A program made the translations under genes and the position numbers. The notes beneath the pieces were generated by a model. It ran no database searches. It saw only the letters and a program-made list of their open reading frames with translations, and had not been told where the DNA came from. This document shows positions 10,779 through 17,518 of a DNA stretch of 64,000 nucleotides, piece after piece. Within the stretch, counting starts at the first letter, position 1; the number at the start of each line of letters is the position of its first letter. Source of the DNA: Campylobacter curvus (lineage in GTDB: Bacteria > Campylobacterota > Campylobacteria > Campylobacterales > Campylobacteraceae); the NCBI RefSeq assembly GCF_013372125.1, contig NZ_CP053826.1:806001-870000 (forward strand), read 5' to 3'.

Positions 10779-10849
10779 CTAGAATTTGTAGTTATAGCCT
10801 AGATAAAAACCGTGGTTGGTTTCTTTGAAACAAGGCTCGTTTGCCAAGC
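10779..10849 (-). pseudogene. 3' remnant of an outer-membrane barrel gene
   Basis: Reading the minus strand gives about 23 codons ending NHGFYLGYNYKF and TAG (10779-10781). This is nearly the same tail as the barrel gene at 4980-5591 (NSGVYLGYNYKF). The DNA is also alike over the last 25 bases. No start or body is present because modD occupies the upstream side. It is best read as the leftover end of a second barrel gene replaced by, or deleted next to, the metal operon. Confidence 0.75.
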
Positions 10850-11692
10850 TTATATAAGCCTTAAAGATGCTGTCAGATCCGCCATGCCTTGCGTATATGG
10901 TGCGGAGGTTATTAGCGCGTCGACACCCGTGGTGGCAAATTTAGAGCAGTTAGCGAGATTTATACCGCCTGCAGCGGTGATGACTGGCTGAAATTTAGCG
11001 GCATTTTTTAAATCCACGACTTCTCGCAGCTCGTTCACGGCCATTTTATCGCATTGTATCACGTCAGGAGCGAAATTTAGAAGCGTTTTAAAGTCCGCAA
11101 GCGTTTCGCACTCTACGATTATCTTTTTTTCTGGGAGCTTAGCCTTAAATTCATCTATCCGCTTACAAAACGCCTCGAAATTTTCATAAACATCGATATG
11201 ATTTTTGAAAAACAATACGCTATCGCTTAAATTTAGCCTATGTATCGCTCCGCCGCCGGCTAATACGGCTGCTATGCAAAATTCTTTCGCAAAAGGAAAG
11301 GTCTTTCTCGTCGTTTGTATCTGGCAGGTGGGATTTACGGCCTTTGCGGCGCGCACCATGGCATTTGTGTATGTTGAAATTTTGCATGAGTATTCGAGTA
11401 AAATTTGAATGAGCTTCCAGGCCTTGTGCAAGTCGCCATAACTGCCTCTGGCCTGAAATATCGTCTCTTTCGCGCTAAAATTTTGAGAATTTTCACTTTT
11501 GCTGATCGTTTCGCACCCTAGCATGGCGGCTATCCTCGCGGCTATATCGACGTTGCTTAGCACTATGTCATCGCGAGTTGATATGCTAAGCATCGCTTGG
11601 TGATTTAGAAATTCGCTCTGAAGCGATGTCGTGAGGTCATCAAAGGGCAGGTCCGATTTTATGTATTCCCAAATTTGCGCGTCACTTATCAT
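10850..11692 (-). CDS. modD: ModD-like quinolinate phosphoribosyltransferase family protein
   Basis: A 280-residue NadC paralogue of the ModD type. Family features are DAQIWEYIKSDLPFDDLTT at the N-terminus, the RTTRKTFP-like basic motif (TTRKTFPFAKEF), GAIHRLNLSDSVLFFKNH and the barrel end ITAAGGINLANCSKFA. ModD genes are named from molybdenum transport loci but their reaction is not established. Here there is no mod transporter nearby; the gene is the last of a tight metal operon and overlaps the preceding gene by 4 bases. A true NadC is less likely because the N-terminal pattern is that of ModD. Confidence 0.8.
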   Translation of the reverse strand: MISDAQIWEYIKSDLPFDDLTTSLQSEFLNHQAMLSISTRDDIVLSNVDIAARIAAMLGCETISKSENSQNFSAKETIFQARGSYGDLHKAWKLIQILLEYSCKISTYTNAMVRAAKAVNPTCQIQTTRKTFPFAKEFCIAAVLAGGGAIHRLNLSDSVLFFKNHIDVYENFEAFCKRIDEFKAKLPEKKIIVECETLADFKTLLNFAPDVIQCDKMAVNELREVVDLKNAAKFQPVITAAGGINLANCSKFATTGVDALITSAPYTQGMADLTASLRLI

Positions 11693-11958
11693 TTTTGCTC
11701 GTTTTTTAAATTCATTCTGCGTTTTTTACCGCTTTTGGATATGAGATTTTGAAATATCCCGTCGTTGTAAAGTCCGTAATGATAGAGGCTAAAGCCCACC
11801 AGCGCCGCACCCGCAGCGATGTGAAGATTTTTGCCGAGGCGACTTTTCATGCTAAAGGCCGTGAGCGTAACGACTCCTAGCGATACGCCCATGCCGATCT
11901 TTGCGATATTTCTTTGTGTTTGTAAATTTAAAAGCGAGCCTTTTAGTTTATTTGCCAA
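11689..11958 (-). CDS. Small two-helix membrane protein of the metal operon
   Basis: An 89-residue protein from TTG 11958 with two hydrophobic helices (about 19-36 and 45-65, KNLHIAAGAALVGFSLYHYGLY) and basic termini (C-terminal KSGKKRRMNLKNEQK). The start overlaps the ATPase stop by 11 bases and the stop overlaps modD by 4. It contains a His in each half of the hairpin that could face metal, which is speculation. I do not recognise the family. Its place after the ATPase matches the accessory membrane genes expected in fez-type operons. Confidence 0.75.
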   Translation of the reverse strand: MANKLKGSLLNLQTQRNIAKIGMGVSLGVVTLTAFSMKSRLGKNLHIAAGAALVGFSLYHYGLYNDGIFQNLISKSGKKRRMNLKNEQK

Positions 11959-14038
11959 ATTTTACACCTTTCATTGAATTTAGCAGCAGCCATATCGTCG
12001 TACCGTTATGAAGCACGGCTGTCGCGATAGGATTTAGCATACCAAATGTCGCTGCCCCGAGGATCGCCGTGTTTATGCCTACTGTCGAGCGGAAATTTGC
12101 CCCGATGAGCTTCATCGTGTTGTTGGCGAGCTCCTTTGCCAGCGCGACGCTCATTATGTCGTCCTTTAAAAGACTGATATCAGCTGTCGCCTTTGCGATG
12201 TCAGCGCCCTTGTGCATGCTGATGCCGACATTTGCCTTTGTAAGGCTTGGCGCATCGTTTATGCCATCGCCTATGAAAGCGACATTTTTGCCCTCATTTT
12301 TTAGCGTTTCGATGATGTGAGCCTTGTCTGTGGGCAAGCACTCGGCAAAGACCTTGTCAAGGCCCAGCTCTTTTGCGACCTCTTCGGCCTTGCTTTTTAT
12401 ATCGCCGCTTAGCATCACGATCTCTTTTACTCCGAGGCCTCTTAGGCGTGCTACCATATCTTTTGCGTTTTCGCGCATATCGTCTTTCATAGCGATCACG
12501 CCTACTAGCTCTTTGTTGTAGCCCACGTAAAGCAGCGTAAGCCCGCTTTTTAGCGAGCTGGCGATCATCTCATCATGCGCGCTGAAGTCGATCATCTCGT
12601 CATCCTCTAAAAAGTGTCTGCTGCCGATGACGACCTCTTTGCCGTGCATAAGGGTCTTTACGCCGTGAGCGACGATGAATTCGACCTCGTCGTGATGGAT
12701 ATGGCTAAAACCGCGCTTGTTTGCCGCCTCCACGATAGCCTCTGCGACCGGGTGGAAATAATGCTCCTCGGCGCTTGCTGTCAAATTTAGTATGTCAGCC
12801 TCGCTAAATCCCTTTTTAAAAGAGTAAATTTGCACTACGCTCAGGCGTCCGTGTGTCAGCGTGCCGGTTTTGTCAAAGACAAAGGTGTCCGCCATGCTTA
12901 GCGCCTCGATCGCCTTTGCGCCTTTTATCAGGATGCCGTTCCTGCCGGCTTTTGAGATGCTTGACTTAAACGCTACCGGCGTGGCGAGCTTCAGCGCGCA
13001 GGAGTAATCGGCCTGAAGCACGCTCGCGACGCTGTTCATATCTTTGTTTATAAGATACGAAGCGCCCGCTAGCGAGAGCGTCACCGGCACTAGCTTGTCG
13101 GCTAGTTTGGTCGCTTTTAGCCCGACGTTTGATTTTTCATTTAAAGAGCTTTGGATATACTCTTTTATGCGCGCGGTCGCAGTCTCGCTGCCTACGTTTT
13201 CAGCCCAAATTTTGATACGACCTTCATCGACGACCGTGCCGCTTATGACGCGGTCGCCTCTTGCTTTTGGCACGGGCTCGGCTTCGCCTGTCATCGAGAC
13301 TTGATTGACGCTTGCGTTTCCCTCGACGATGTAGCCGTCTATACCGATAGTTTCACCGGCTCCGACTACGACTATATCGCCTTTTTTGACGTTTTGCGTT
13401 TTTACTTTATGTAGCGTTTTAGAGCCGTCTTTCTCGCGCTTTTCGATCCAGACCTCTTCGATATTTGGCTTAGCCAGCTCTTTGATGAGATCGTCGCTTC
13501 TGTGAGAGGCGCTCTCCTCCATGTATTCGCCGATATTTATCATCAAATTCGTGCTATTTGCCGCGAGATGATCGCCTAGCGCCAGGCTCGTTCCTATCGC
13601 CATAGCCTCCAAAACTTTGGAAGTGACGCCTTCGTTTTTAAGCTCTTTTGCTCCCTCTATCAGATTTGGAGCTGCGCTGTAAAGCCCGATCGCCGTTTTG
13701 GCCTTGGTGTTTGTGATAAATGGCGTTACAGCAAGCGCTGCACCAGCTTTATAGATATTTACTTTGCTTGGCTGTGATGTATCCTTTGTCTTTTTGGGCA
13801 TGTCAAAATTTGAGATAAATTCCAAAATTTTATCGAGCCCGGAGTCAAATTCTACGATCACGCTTTTTGCGTATTTGTTTACGCGCACACTTTTAGCACT
13901 CGTGCGCTCGGTTATCGTGGCCTCTATGGCGCTCACATCGCTAGTATCGGTTATGTTTTCGCAAATGATGCGAACGCGATTTTTGCTTTGATGAGCGATA
14001 CGCACGTTATTTTTGTGCTTCAAGCTCTGCTTTGACAT
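11948..14038 (-). CDS. P1B-type metal ATPase, FezB-like candidate
   Basis: About 696-residue heavy-metal-type P-ATPase. An N-terminal HMA-like domain (residues about 10-85) has an NRVRI stretch where CxxC would be in copper ATPases. Then come helices, the actuator motif TGEAEPVPK, the phosphorylation motif DKTGTLTHG (Asp about 387), an HP motif (YFHPVAEAI) and GDGINDAP. The membrane metal motif is SCALK (about 346) instead of CPC, CPH, SPC or TPC; from memory this type belongs to the P1B-6 group, which includes FezB of ferrosomes. TTG 14044 is possible, but ATG 14038 is preferred. Its partner genes are HMA-like, ferritin-like and small membrane proteins, and iron is the likely metal. Confidence 0.88.
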   Translation of the reverse strand: MSKQSLKHKNNVRIAHQSKNRVRIICENITDTSDVSAIEATITERTSAKSVRVNKYAKSVIVEFDSGLDKILEFISNFDMPKKTKDTSQPSKVNIYKAGAALAVTPFITNTKAKTAIGLYSAAPNLIEGAKELKNEGVTSKVLEAMAIGTSLALGDHLAANSTNLMINIGEYMEESASHRSDDLIKELAKPNIEEVWIEKREKDGSKTLHKVKTQNVKKGDIVVVGAGETIGIDGYIVEGNASVNQVSMTGEAEPVPKARGDRVISGTVVDEGRIKIWAENVGSETATARIKEYIQSSLNEKSNVGLKATKLADKLVPVTLSLAGASYLINKDMNSVASVLQADYSCALKLATPVAFKSSISKAGRNGILIKGAKAIEALSMADTFVFDKTGTLTHGRLSVVQIYSFKKGFSEADILNLTASAEEHYFHPVAEAIVEAANKRGFSHIHHDEVEFIVAHGVKTLMHGKEVVIGSRHFLEDDEMIDFSAHDEMIASSLKSGLTLLYVGYNKELVGVIAMKDDMRENAKDMVARLRGLGVKEIVMLSGDIKSKAEEVAKELGLDKVFAECLPTDKAHIIETLKNEGKNVAFIGDGINDAPSLTKANVGISMHKGADIAKATADISLLKDDIMSVALAKELANNTMKLIGANFRSTVGINTAILGAATFGMLNPIATAVLHNGTTIWLLLNSMKGVKFGK

Positions 14039-14300
14039 CTTCAAATCGCTCTTTTAGCTCTTCTATGCCTGCGTTTATAAGCGCGCCGCCTTTTACGATA
14101 GCCTTGAATACGCACTCTTGCGCCTTAGGGTTTGTGAGCACGTAGGCGGCGATGCCGCCGATTAGCAGGCCTTTTACAAAGCCTGCCGCGTTGAAATTTT
14201 CAGGCACGAACGGCAGATTTTCAGCCGCATTGTTTATCGCATTGTCGATCGCACTTGGTGCGCTTTGACTAGCGGTTTCGTTTATGTATGGGTTTTGCAT
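14007..14300 (-). CDS. Small membrane protein with amphipathic tail (metal operon)
   Basis: A 97-residue protein with a polar N-terminus (about 1-40), one glycine-rich hydrophobic segment (GFVKGLLIGGIAAYVLTN, about 44-62) and a charged helical tail (IEELKERFEDVKAELEAQK). This architecture resembles YtxH-type proteins, though I cannot assign the family firmly. The gene overlaps the ATPase start by about 30 bases and touches the preceding gene, so it is co-translated. Such small glycine-rich membrane proteins are common in organelle-forming clusters. Confidence 0.78.
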   Translation of the reverse strand: MQNPYINETASQSAPSAIDNAINNAAENLPFVPENFNAAGFVKGLLIGGIAAYVLTNPKAQECVFKAIVKGGALINAGIEELKERFEDVKAELEAQK

Positions 14301-14617
14301 TATTTATTCTCCAAATTTATGATTTTTTCGGCTATCAGCAGGCCGCCGACTCCTAGTGAAATTTTAGTGGCGGCACCAAGATACCTGCCTCTTGCGATAG
14401 AATTTGACGCGCTTATCGCGATCGCAGTCACAAAGCCGCCGCAAACGCTAAATTTTAAAATTTTCTTAGCGGTTTGTAGCTTGTCTTTGCTAGGATCGTT
14501 CGCGTGCTCGTTAAAGCTTATCGCCGCTGCGCTCATGCCTGCGATCAAGGCTCCGCTTAAAAAATGATCGAAAGGAAGCCTCGTATCAGAAAGCGCAAAT
14601 GCCTTAGTTTGCTGCAT
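14300..14617 (-). CDS. Small glycine/alanine-rich membrane protein (metal operon)
   Basis: A 105-residue protein with three short hydrophobic stretches (about 19-35 SGALIAGMSAAAISF, 54-70 FSVCGGFVTAIAISA and 80-97 GAATKISLGVGGLLIAEKI). AAGGA lies 6 bases before ATG 14617. The stop overlaps the next gene by one base. I do not recognise the family. The small, conserved-looking glycine motifs suggest tight helix packing in a membrane. It belongs to the ferrosome-like operon by position only. Confidence 0.78.
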   Translation of the reverse strand: MQQTKAFALSDTRLPFDHFLSGALIAGMSAAAISFNEHANDPSKDKLQTAKKILKFSVCGGFVTAIAISASNSIARGRYLGAATKISLGVGGLLIAEKIINLENK

Positions 14618-14626
14618 ATTTTATCC

Positions 14627-14971
14627 TTACGCTAGCTCAGGAGCCGGCGTACTAGGTGCAGCCGCTTTTTTAGCGCGCGGTTTTCTGGTCTTTTTTGCCG
14701 GCTTTTGAGCCTCTTGTTGCGTCTTTTTAGTGGCGCGTCCTTTTTTTGCGGCTGGTTTGCTGGCTACGAATTCCTTGACCTCTTTCGTAGCTTCTTTGCC
14801 TTTTTTGTAAATTTTCTCAGCTGTTTCTTTGCCTTTTTCAAGCCCGCAACTTGCGTAATCTTTGATCTTGTCGCGTCTGTTCCAAGCGACGACTGCTAGT
14901 GCTCCTGCGGCTATTCCCGCTAAAAATGGTAATGCCATCTTAAATCCTTTCTTGGTTTGTGAGTTATTCAT
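14627..14971 (-). CDS. Membrane-anchored protein with histone-H1-like Lys/Ala/Pro tail
   Basis: A 114-residue protein. Residues about 12-28 (MALPFLAGIAAGALAVVAW) form one membrane helix, followed by a charged helix (KGKETAEKIYKKGKEATKEVKEF, like YtxH proteins) and then a very basic low-complexity tail of Lys, Ala, Pro and Arg with a short acidic end. Both ATG 14971 and ATG 14938 have an AAAGGA at a fair distance, so the first 11 residues are uncertain. The tail is like histone H1 and could bind polyphosphate, DNA or acidic mineral surfaces. That is inference. Confidence 0.8.
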   Translation of the reverse strand: MNNSQTKKGFKMALPFLAGIAAGALAVVAWNRRDKIKDYASCGLEKGKETAEKIYKKGKEATKEVKEFVASKPAAKKGRATKKTQQEAQKPAKKTRKPRAKKAAAPSTPAPELA

Positions 14972-15620
14972 CAGATTTATCCTTTTGTGAAATTTTATCC
15001 ATCATAGAAATGCCAAGCGCTCCAAGCGCCAGACCGCTGAAAAACGAGAAATTCGGATTATTCAAAATTTTAGCAAGCTGCGCTTTGTCAGCGTTGCCGC
15101 TCGCGATACTTTGCAAACCCTCGCTCATCTCGTTAAAGCTTTTTTGATATTCGTTCAAGATATTTTCATATCCGCCTTGAAGTAAATTTTGACCTAAATT
15201 TTCTAGATTCGCCTCCTCTTTCGCCTGCGTTTTTTTGTTTAGACAACGGGCTAAATTTTGCTTTAAAGCTGGGATGTATTCGTTATTTGATGTAGCCCAG
15301 AGCCTGAAAAACAGATCTTTTAGCTCCTCGTCGTCTAGATCCGAGGTGAAATTTTCATACATTTTATTTAGCTGTATCTCATAGTTTAGCGCGCAAATAA
15401 GCGCATCTTCAAAGCTATTTGGCGTCAAAAACGCATTTGGTGCATCAGCGTCATCGAGCTTTAGGCCTTTTGCTTGGGCGTATTTTTTGATAAGCTCGAT
15501 CGCACCGCTTCTTATAGATGATATCTCGCTAAAAATTTCGCCAAATGCGCTTACGCTCTCATATAAAATTTGTGCGTTTTTTTCGCTTATGTAAGCTGCA
15601 CTCAAAAGCTCGTCATGCAC
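14964..15620 (-). CDS. Ferritin-like helical-bundle protein (metal operon)
   Basis: A 218-residue protein that looks all-helical. Residues about 8-50 and 80-130 carry the acidic pattern of ferritin-like carboxylate proteins (AAYISEKNAQILYESV, ALNYEIQLNKMYENFTSDLDDEELKDLFFRLWATSNNEY). The second metal helix ends NNEYIPA rather than ExxH, so a complete di-iron site is not assured. The C-terminus (about 180-215) contains a hydrophobic stretch (FSFFSGLALGALGISMM) that may anchor it to membrane. The start is GTG 15620, overlapping the HMA gene. The assignment comes from pattern and context, not a confirmed family match. Confidence 0.7.
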   Translation of the reverse strand: MHDELLSAAYISEKNAQILYESVSAFGEIFSEISSIRSGAIELIKKYAQAKGLKLDDADAPNAFLTPNSFEDALICALNYEIQLNKMYENFTSDLDDEELKDLFFRLWATSNNEYIPALKQNLARCLNKKTQAKEEANLENLGQNLLQGGYENILNEYQKSFNEMSEGLQSIASGNADKAQLAKILNNPNFSFFSGLALGALGISMMDKISQKDKSDE

Positions 15621-15936
15621 AACTGACCTCCCTTGCTACGGCGTTGATCTTTTGTGAAATTTGCTCTAAATTTTGTCCGTTCAGCAAGTCCTCCCATAAA
15701 TTTTTAGGGAAAATTTGATGATCGTATTCGATCGTGACCGAGCCTATTATTTTGTTGAATTTCACGTTTTTTATGCCGTTTATTTTGGCTATCGTATCAT
15801 CAAGCGTGCCTAAATTCACATTTTGCGAGATCTCTTTTATCTGCGGGCTCACGCGCACTCTTAGTCTGCCGTTCGTGTGAGCTATCACGGTAAAATATGA
15901 GGCCACTTGAGCCAGAGTATCGATTTGTATATTCAT
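15613..15936 (-). CDS. HMA-like small protein heading the metal operon
   Basis: A 107-residue cytosolic protein with the beta-alpha-beta pattern of heavy-metal-associated domains but without the CxxC motif. In its place is GRLRVRV (about 22-28), then an alternating helix and strand pattern (DDTIAKINGIKNVKFNKIIGSVTIEYD). The same R-x-R pattern occurs in the N-terminal domain of the ATPase encoded downstream, which suggests partner domains. AAGGAA precedes ATG 15936. It is the first gene after the Fur-like regulator on the same strand. By position and fold it is a FezC-like candidate. Confidence 0.78.
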   Translation of the reverse strand: MNIQIDTLAQVASYFTVIAHTNGRLRVRVSPQIKEISQNVNLGTLDDTIAKINGIKNVKFNKIIGSVTIEYDHQIFPKNLWEDLLNGQNLEQISQKINAVAREVSCA

Positions 15937-15961
15937 TTGAGTTCCTTATTTTTTATGCGGT

Positions 15962-15992
15962 ATTATCCGATTATGTAACTTAGATGTAACTT
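15962..15992 (-). promoter_or_regulatory. Promoter and tandem operator-like repeats of the metal operon
   Basis: The minus strand carries two exact copies of AAGTTACAT (15984-15992 and 15973-15981), offset by 11 bases or one helical turn. They are followed by GATAAT (15962-15967), a candidate -10 box. The repeats overlap the -35 zone, a usual place for a regulator. An inverted TTATCA/TGATAA pair lies upstream at 16011-16037. Confidence 0.5.
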
Positions 15993-16040
15993 AAAATTTT
16001 CTGTCTCTCATTATCAAAATGCTAAAAATTATGATAAATT

Positions 16041-16484
16041 TTACCCGTTTGTTTTTTGACAGTCTGCGCAGACGCCGTAAAGCACCATCGTGTGCGCTAC
16101 CGCCTCGAAATTTTTCTCTTTACAGATCAACTCTTGTCTTTGCTCTATGTCCTCGTCGTGAAATTCCACGACCTTGCCGCATTTCTCGCAGATGAGGTGA
16201 TCGTGATGGGCTTTTAAATTCAGTTCGTATTTTTTTATGCCGCCATCATCGTAGCTGTTGCATAAACGGCATTCGTCTAGGAAATTTAAGAGCGCATATA
16301 TAGTAGGAAGCGATATGCTTTGAGCGTAAATTTTGCTAAATTCCGTCTGGATGTCTTGGGCGCTAAGGTGCGTCTGCGAGCGATATAAAATGGACAAGAT
16401 ATTTTCTTTTATGTGAGAATTTTTGTGGTTGAATTCGCTCATGAAGCTTGATAAATGCTGATAAAAACGCTCGAAATTTTCCAT
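16041..16484 (-). CDS. Fur-family metal-responsive regulator
   Basis: A 147-residue Fur-superfamily repressor. The N-terminal winged helix (residues about 20-80, with LSAQDIQTEFSKIYAQSISLPTIYALLNFLDECRLC) is followed by the metal and dimer domain with KAHHDHLICEKCGKVVEF and a C-terminal CADCQ, i.e. two Cys pairs for structural zinc. It lies 104 bases upstream of the HMA-ferritin-ATPase operon on the same strand, so it probably controls it. Which metal or stress it senses (iron, peroxide, zinc) cannot be decided. The global Fur of Campylobacter is normally elsewhere, so this is likely a local regulator. Confidence 0.9.
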   Translation of the reverse strand: MENFERFYQHLSSFMSEFNHKNSHIKENILSILYRSQTHLSAQDIQTEFSKIYAQSISLPTIYALLNFLDECRLCNSYDDGGIKKYELNLKAHHDHLICEKCGKVVEFHDEDIEQRQELICKEKNFEAVAHTMVLYGVCADCQKTNG

Positions 16485-16855: not shown

Positions 16856-17518
16856 TTATAGAAAATACTTGTTTATTATCTCGTGAAGTTTTAGCGTGTA
16901 TTTGTTCATTTTCGGGCTGTTGTTGTAAAGATCCTCGTAGTCATACATCCTTTCGTAGTAGTCGTTTGTTTGTTGCCTGTTGGTGGTGATCCTGCCAAGA
17001 TCTATACCTACCCCGATAAAAGCGCCGCTTGTTTTAGTCCTATCTACTATAAATGCTGAAATTTCAGGCAGATCGGTCGTTACACCAGAGCCTTCTCCTA
17101 TGCCGGCGGTAGCTTCTGCGTTTATGCTGATAGTGTCTTTGCCGTTAAAGAGCCTTGCGTAGGCCTGTGAGTTTTTAAACAAAATGATCGTATCCGCAGA
17201 GCTTATGCCCGCTTGTGCTCCGATGCCTGCTGCCGTATAGTTTATGAAAACGGGGCTCGACCACTCGCCATCGTCGTTTTTAGCTACGAATATCCCTTCT
17301 CCTTTAGCACCGGAGACGACAAATGCGCTCTTCGCTACGTCAGGGATTATCGCGATAGCTTTGATATCTTTAAATTTTTCGTTGCCGTGTAAATTTCGCA
17401 AACCGAAAGAATTTAGTATGTTTATCGTATTTTTGACCTTTTGGTTTTGTATGATGTCGGCGTTTGATATACCGCAAAACAAAGAGATCGTGCATAAAAA
17501 TGCAAAAATTTTTTTCAT
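16856..17518 (-). CDS. Secreted SYLF-domain (YSC84-like) protein
   Basis: A 220-residue protein with a signal peptide (residues 1-20, ending GISNA) and a lipid-binding SYLF domain. Visible landmarks are KAIAIIPDVAKSAFVVSGAKGEGIFVAK, INYTAAGIGAQAGISSADTIILFKN and the late GAFIGVGIDLGRI. The role is unknown; SYLF domains bind phosphoinositides in eukaryotes and in bacteria are periplasmic or outer-membrane proteins. A second, shorter SYLF protein is encoded at 26847. The C-terminal about 45 residues, rich in Tyr and Asn, are an extra tail. Confidence 0.87.
   Translation of the reverse strand: MKKIFAFLCTISLFCGISNADIIQNQKVKNTINILNSFGLRNLHGNEKFKDIKAIAIIPDVAKSAFVVSGAKGEGIFVAKNDDGEWSSPVFINYTAAGIGAQAGISSADTIILFKNSQAYARLFNGKDTISINAEATAGIGEGSGVTTDLPEISAFIVDRTKTSGAFIGVGIDLGRITTNRQQTNDYYERMYDYEDLYNNSPKMNKYTLKLHEIINKYFL

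Follow-up and report, generated by a model that had tools for sequence, protein, structure and literature searches.

Ferrosomes, which store iron within a membrane, have to our knowledge been shown in very few bacteria. The fez operon of Shewanella putrefaciens has six genes, and fezX is one of the ferrosome genes of Clostridioides difficile. Others in C. difficile are fezA and fezB (PMC12574912, PMC11651100; these, like all papers cited here by accession, are drawn on in excerpt), and a C. difficile fezB mutant was a poorer coloniser of mice (PMC12574912). In Rhodopseudomonas palustris the fez operon spans RPA2333-2338 (PMC12016538). FezC is a DUF4405-like cytochrome (PMC11334425). Here we describe a probable counterpart of these systems in Campylobacter curvus, in a window of 64,000 nucleotides (the whole stretch of DNA analysed; contig NZ_CP053826.1, positions 806,001 to 870,000). 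An earlier note on the window had proposed a fez-type iron organelle operon with its own Fur-family regulator.

The layout described there was confirmed: a Fur-family gene at 16041-16484 is followed by eight close-packed minus-strand genes reaching down to 10850, and all nine open reading frames are intact. The core runs from an HMA-like gene through a ferritin-like gene, three small membrane protein genes and an ATPase gene with a SCALK motif to a gene for an 89-amino-acid protein, bringing HMA-like protein, small membrane proteins and ATPase together in one operon. We conclude from homology and layout that this seven-gene core, known here from its genes, is a fez-type (ferrosome) operon, and the locus looks like a full ferrosome gene set. 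The features are listed below, with homologue counts among 40 Campylobacterota loci, a diversity selection from the 135 genomes with an ATPase match, and 81 loci from outside the phylum.

16041..16484, minus strand, Fur-family regulator (Pfam FUR, 103 bits)
15937..16040, minus strand, region that probably holds the core operon promoter (half-site TGATAATGA, TTTAAGTTAC repeats, GGATAAT)
15613..15936, minus strand, HMA-like protein without CxxC, with a GRLRVRV motif (Pfam HMA_2, 37.5 bits, over cut-off)
14964..15620, minus strand, ferritin-like protein of 218 amino acids (ferritin matches of its model; Pfam on relatives)
14627..14971, minus strand, first of three small membrane proteins (homologues in 28 of 40 Campylobacterota loci and 6 of 81 others)
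14300..14617, minus strand, second of the three (homologues in 65 of 81 loci outside Campylobacterota)
14007..14300, minus strand, third of the three (homologues in 77 of 81 loci outside Campylobacterota)
11948..14044, minus strand, FezB-type P1B ATPase with QADYSCALK and no CxxC (alternative ATG start at 14038)
11689..11958, minus strand, FezC-type small protein of 89 amino acids (H46 and H60 invariant in the alignment)
10850..11692, minus strand, ModD, QPRTase-like (NCBIfam TIGR01334, over cut-off)
10835..10849, minus strand, terminator-like hairpin directly past ModD (pattern scan, weak)

In a quick tree the ATPase fell in one clade of 98 counted members, with a Shimodaira-Hasegawa-like approximate likelihood ratio test (SH-aLRT) value of 100, apart from the copper-type ATPases of the same genome and together with Shewanella and alphaproteobacterial homologues that lie in similar gene arrangements. 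The tree held 116 of 140 rows, chosen by motif; the 24 omitted were near-copies or short and included one of the three from Shewanella. A Fusobacterium relative with a long branch was not part of the strict clade. SCALK is present and CxxC absent, and none of the marks of a copper-type ATPase (a CPC motif, a CxxC domain, a passing copper model score) was found; under the TIGR01511 copper model the protein scored 315.4 bits, short of the cut-off of 397, which both same-genome copper-type ATPases pass. It also missed the CopA/ZntA-type cut-offs by far, which says little because the copper-type ATPases of the genome miss them too. A sequence search of the PDB with the ATPase matched only other P-type ATPases. 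Of the earlier proposal, the operon type is upheld by ATPase clade and layout, while the organelle itself is predicted from the genes.

The earlier note had pointed to the HMA-like protein as a FezC candidate, an assignment that does not stand: the protein matches HMA_2, whereas FezC is DUF4405-like. It lacks CxxC and has homologues in 70 of the 81 non-Campylobacterota loci (E < 1e-4). Homology instead identifies the predicted FezC counterpart as the fourth small membrane protein (11689-11958), through members of its family that match DUF4405 (35 of 38 at E ≤ 1) and carry conserved histidines, H46 and H60 being the only invariant columns among the 38 aligned rows. These rows omit L035, L040, L048, L056, L058, L066 and L072 (seven of 34 Campylobacterota loci, both histidines present in all) and four weaker matches (L108, L114, L119, L136). 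The idea that FezC is encoded by another DUF4405 gene of the genome was dropped, since the seven matches were weak and none exceeded the cut-off. The FezC-type protein is longer, at 191-217 amino acids, in the Campylobacterota loci L043, L044, L045, L049, L063 and L064, and six of the 38 proteins have a SpoIIAA-like match, in L043 as a C-terminal fusion.

Compared with the fez type of R. palustris and S. putrefaciens, the C. curvus locus has in common a SCALK-clade ATPase, an HMA-like protein, small glycine-rich proteins and a single direction of genes; it differs in the ferritin-like protein in second place and in its own Fur paralogue. This comparison ran through other Shewanella, Azospirillum and Magnetospirillum, not the published sequences. 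Azospirillum and Magnetospirillum have a FezC-like end fused to an HMA_2-like domain just below the Pfam cut-off, whereas in C. curvus the FezC-type protein is encoded by a separate gene past the ATPase. By description, Desulfovibrio magneticus shares a FezB-type ATPase and a DUF4405-like FezC with conserved histidines (PMC11334425). Also by description, C. difficile shares a transporter and a membrane protein, reported as Fur-repressed (PMC12574912), and the C. curvus operon has more genes.

The ferritin-like component is a new element of a fez-type operon here, as judged from Pfam on relatives and from fold. The 218-amino-acid window protein matched no family over cut-off in a Pfam scan. Among six Campylobacterota relatives, four exceeded the cut-off for DUF2202 or Rubrerythrin, one fell just below and one was without a match; outside the phylum, two of four exceeded it and two fell just below. 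A model of the Aliarcobacter relative, with a predicted local distance difference test score (pLDDT) of 83.9, gave a best Foldseek match at E 8e-5 to MJ0754, which we take to be ferritin-like, followed by ferritins and bacterioferritins at E 0.01-0.1. The window protein's own model (pLDDT 80, predicted template modelling score 0.60, C-terminal third less certain) matched ferritins and bacterioferritins in Foldseek, with a best E of 9e-4 to a ferritin, and points to a ferritin-like four-helix fold. This fold is shared with DUF2202, rubrerythrin and bacterioferritin proteins, from which the window protein differs in its replaced ligands and in an extra hydrophobic, glycine-rich C-terminal stretch, judged by eye and probably a membrane anchor. 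Outside the phylum, 15 of the 81 fez-type loci have ferritin-like relatives, chiefly loci of betaproteobacteria and Azotobacter, and PF00210 found one ferritin-family gene in the C. curvus genome.

Five ligand positions were compared across 35 rows. The intact carboxylate/histidine di-iron set, E/E/H/E/H, was found in 12 rows, from five families other than the Campylobacteraceae, and E/[RK]/[AG]/E/Y in 13, window included, all from the Campylobacteraceae; the other ten comprised five mixed rows from that family, three mixed rows from one other family and two wrong frames (L038, L056) selected by length. Structure alignments were made with 15 of the 18 ferritin-like matches plus the window protein, omitting a fragment (L148), a near-copy (L138) and a weak match (L142). 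The ferritin-like helical protein of the earlier note stands as to fold and falls short as to di-iron ligands. We tentatively propose, giving it slightly less than an even chance, that a membrane-anchored ferritin-like protein would be part of the ferrosomes in Campylobacterota and in several proteobacteria (Thauera, Azotobacter, Dechloromonas and others). In most families it would be a mineralising ferroxidase, whereas the Campylobacteraceae would have remade it as a subunit that docks iron or serves as a scaffold but is not catalytic (lysine or arginine for glutamate, glycine or alanine for one histidine, tyrosine for another). If so, membrane-bounded and protein-cage iron storage would share one component.

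In line with the earlier note, the operon is preceded by a Fur-family gene of its own; the genome has four genes of this family. The encoded Fur paralogue is 40% identical over 123 amino acids to the best-scoring Fur of the genome, and its recognition-helix stretch reads TIYALL in place of TVYRTL; with this DNA-reading stretch altered, it may read other sites. Many loci have a sequence resembling TGATAATGATT 5' of the HMA-like gene, and at a similar place many relatives show a better Fur-box match than the window does. With the consensus TGATAATnATTATCA, the classic Fur box, 14 of 40 upstream regions matched at 12 or more of 14 positions, as did 13 of the 366 other genes in these loci; in 100 rounds of shuffling the number averaged 0.26 and peaked at 2. 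At 13 of 14 positions (two of 40 regions, five of 366 genes) the numbers are too small for a verdict on the strongest sites.

A genome search with the window ATPase matched 135 of 397 Campylobacterota genomes, in 28 of 68 genera. The best match reached at least 548 bits in each of the 135, and the next scores, second matches in three genomes, were below 293; because of this drop the family is cleanly bounded. The genus of the window accounts for 43 genomes with a match, its own included. None of the 20 genomes listed from the 262 without a match is from that genus, and 19 are from one other genus of the family; as this listing is seemingly ordered by kinship, starting at family level, the ATPase is probably carried by every Campylobacter genome sampled. 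The view of the operon as a rarity limited to a single Campylobacter must accordingly be given up. Within the genus the ATPase is 71-85% identical, and SCALK and DKTGT are retained in the relatives inspected. Six of the 135 genomes have an ATPase frame with one internal stop codon (G201 and G368, both of the same genus, G269, G256, G373 and G291), reflecting decay, phase switching or sequencing error. Fez-type operons also occur in Pragia, Hafnia, Pluralibacter and Kluyvera (L096-L101), enteric bacteria related to E. coli, and Kluyvera-like fez DNA was found in none of 20,395 E. coli records.

No report of ferrosomes in Campylobacter, or of a ferritin-like ferrosome part, was found in the open-licence literature examined; the founding papers lie outside it and may list them. 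The excerpt of PMC12574912 neither places ferrosomes in Campylobacter nor ties them to a ferritin-like protein, and granules of Nitratiruptor have been described as polyphosphate-like in an excerpt that is silent on iron (PMC10092412). The FezB-type ATPase is present in a host-associated genus, Campylobacter, and in roughly one in three sampled Campylobacterota genomes, and one of the few bacteria shown to have ferrosomes is a gut pathogen. The parts list offers testable ideas on the haem protein, the ferritin-like protein and the control site of the operon.

Several points weigh against a working ferrosome operon in C. curvus. The SCALK clade is not independent evidence, because the tree rows were selected by that motif, and the FezB label was given by comparison with congeners from Shewanella and the alphaproteobacteria and by the SCA motif, which we take to be a P1B-6 signature, not by comparison with published FezB sequences. 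The ATPase passed the TIGR01512 'cadmium family' cut-off of 313.5 with 364.3 bits, a result that does not discriminate, because two copper-type ATPases and another P1B ATPase of the genome pass as well. For the FezC-type protein of the window itself Pfam gave nothing at E ≤ 1, and the window's ferritin-like protein has lost the di-iron site, three of five ligands being replaced (E/R/A/E/Y). The Fur-box consensus was chosen only after the upstream regions had been inspected, and the window match is weak, at 11 of 14 at a different spot and, by hand count, 10 of 14 at the conserved one. A gene set can also be present yet silent.

It is unlikely that the ATPase instead exports Fe(II) or another divalent metal across the plasma membrane, with the small proteins as accessories and no organelle. 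P1B ATPases are mostly exporters; however, the SPC motif of P1B-4 exporters is missing from this ATPase, and those exporters work without such partner genes, whereas here several small proteins stay beside the ATPase across classes and the FezC-type protein is retained. The iron exporters PfeT and FrvA are P-type ATPases under Fur and/or PerR, but the exporters named in the excerpted source belong to the P1B4 family (PMC7762939). We consider it quite improbable that the operon is fez-type by descent in a lineage that no longer builds the organelle, its pieces serving another iron task. The altered ferritin-like site, confined in its E/[RK]/[AG]/E/Y form to the window's family, the weak window Fur box and the six interrupted ATPase frames hint at such a loss; against it stand the nine intact frames, the conservation of the ATPase and its two motifs, and the 43 same-genus genomes with a match, with none among the 20 listed misses. 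Finally, it is very improbable that the operon exports copper, zinc or cadmium, as the TIGR01512 pass that favours it is uninformative, and the TIGR01511 score, the separate clade, the lack of CxxC in both ATPase and HMA-like protein and the Fur-box-like sites upstream in relatives all oppose it; we rejected the copper or zinc candidate on model scores and tree position. The fez-type reading of the operon is preferred and held to be likely.

Genes beside such operons include a second P1B ATPase (SCPCAT, SCPCST or ACPCAT), found in 10 of the 40 Campylobacterota loci and on two Deltaproteobacteria contigs (L118, L120). It sits between fur and the HMA-like gene in L037, L041, L042, L044, L062, L063, L064 and L070 and precedes the HMA-like gene in L043 and L045; it forms its own clade, with an HMA-like N-terminus and an RxRLK motif in those inspected, and perhaps returns iron or works on another membrane. 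Upstream of the window's Fur gene, past a small plus-strand frame, a secreted protein is encoded on the same strand (16856-17518), which we liken to Ysc84; a protein that looks similar to the eye turns up among the 40 loci in a cluster of five members. FeoB was rejected as a partner, the eight FeoB_N matches, in frames of 207-479 and 903 amino acids, being read as generic GTPases; FeoB_C had no match in the whole genome.

The terminator-like hairpin past ModD is weak evidence, because such hairpins are no commoner than in shuffles (seven observed, mean 10.5 in shuffles, that is, fewer than chance). The ModD gene overlaps the FezC-type gene by 4 bases and is probably a co-transcribed passenger, not the operon part of the earlier note, since it is present in six of 40 loci, each from the same genus as the window. 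Near the operon, modD was found only in loci of that genus and in C. showae (L148). As it does not always adjoin the operon and is split in two pieces in L019 and L036, modD seems dispensable.

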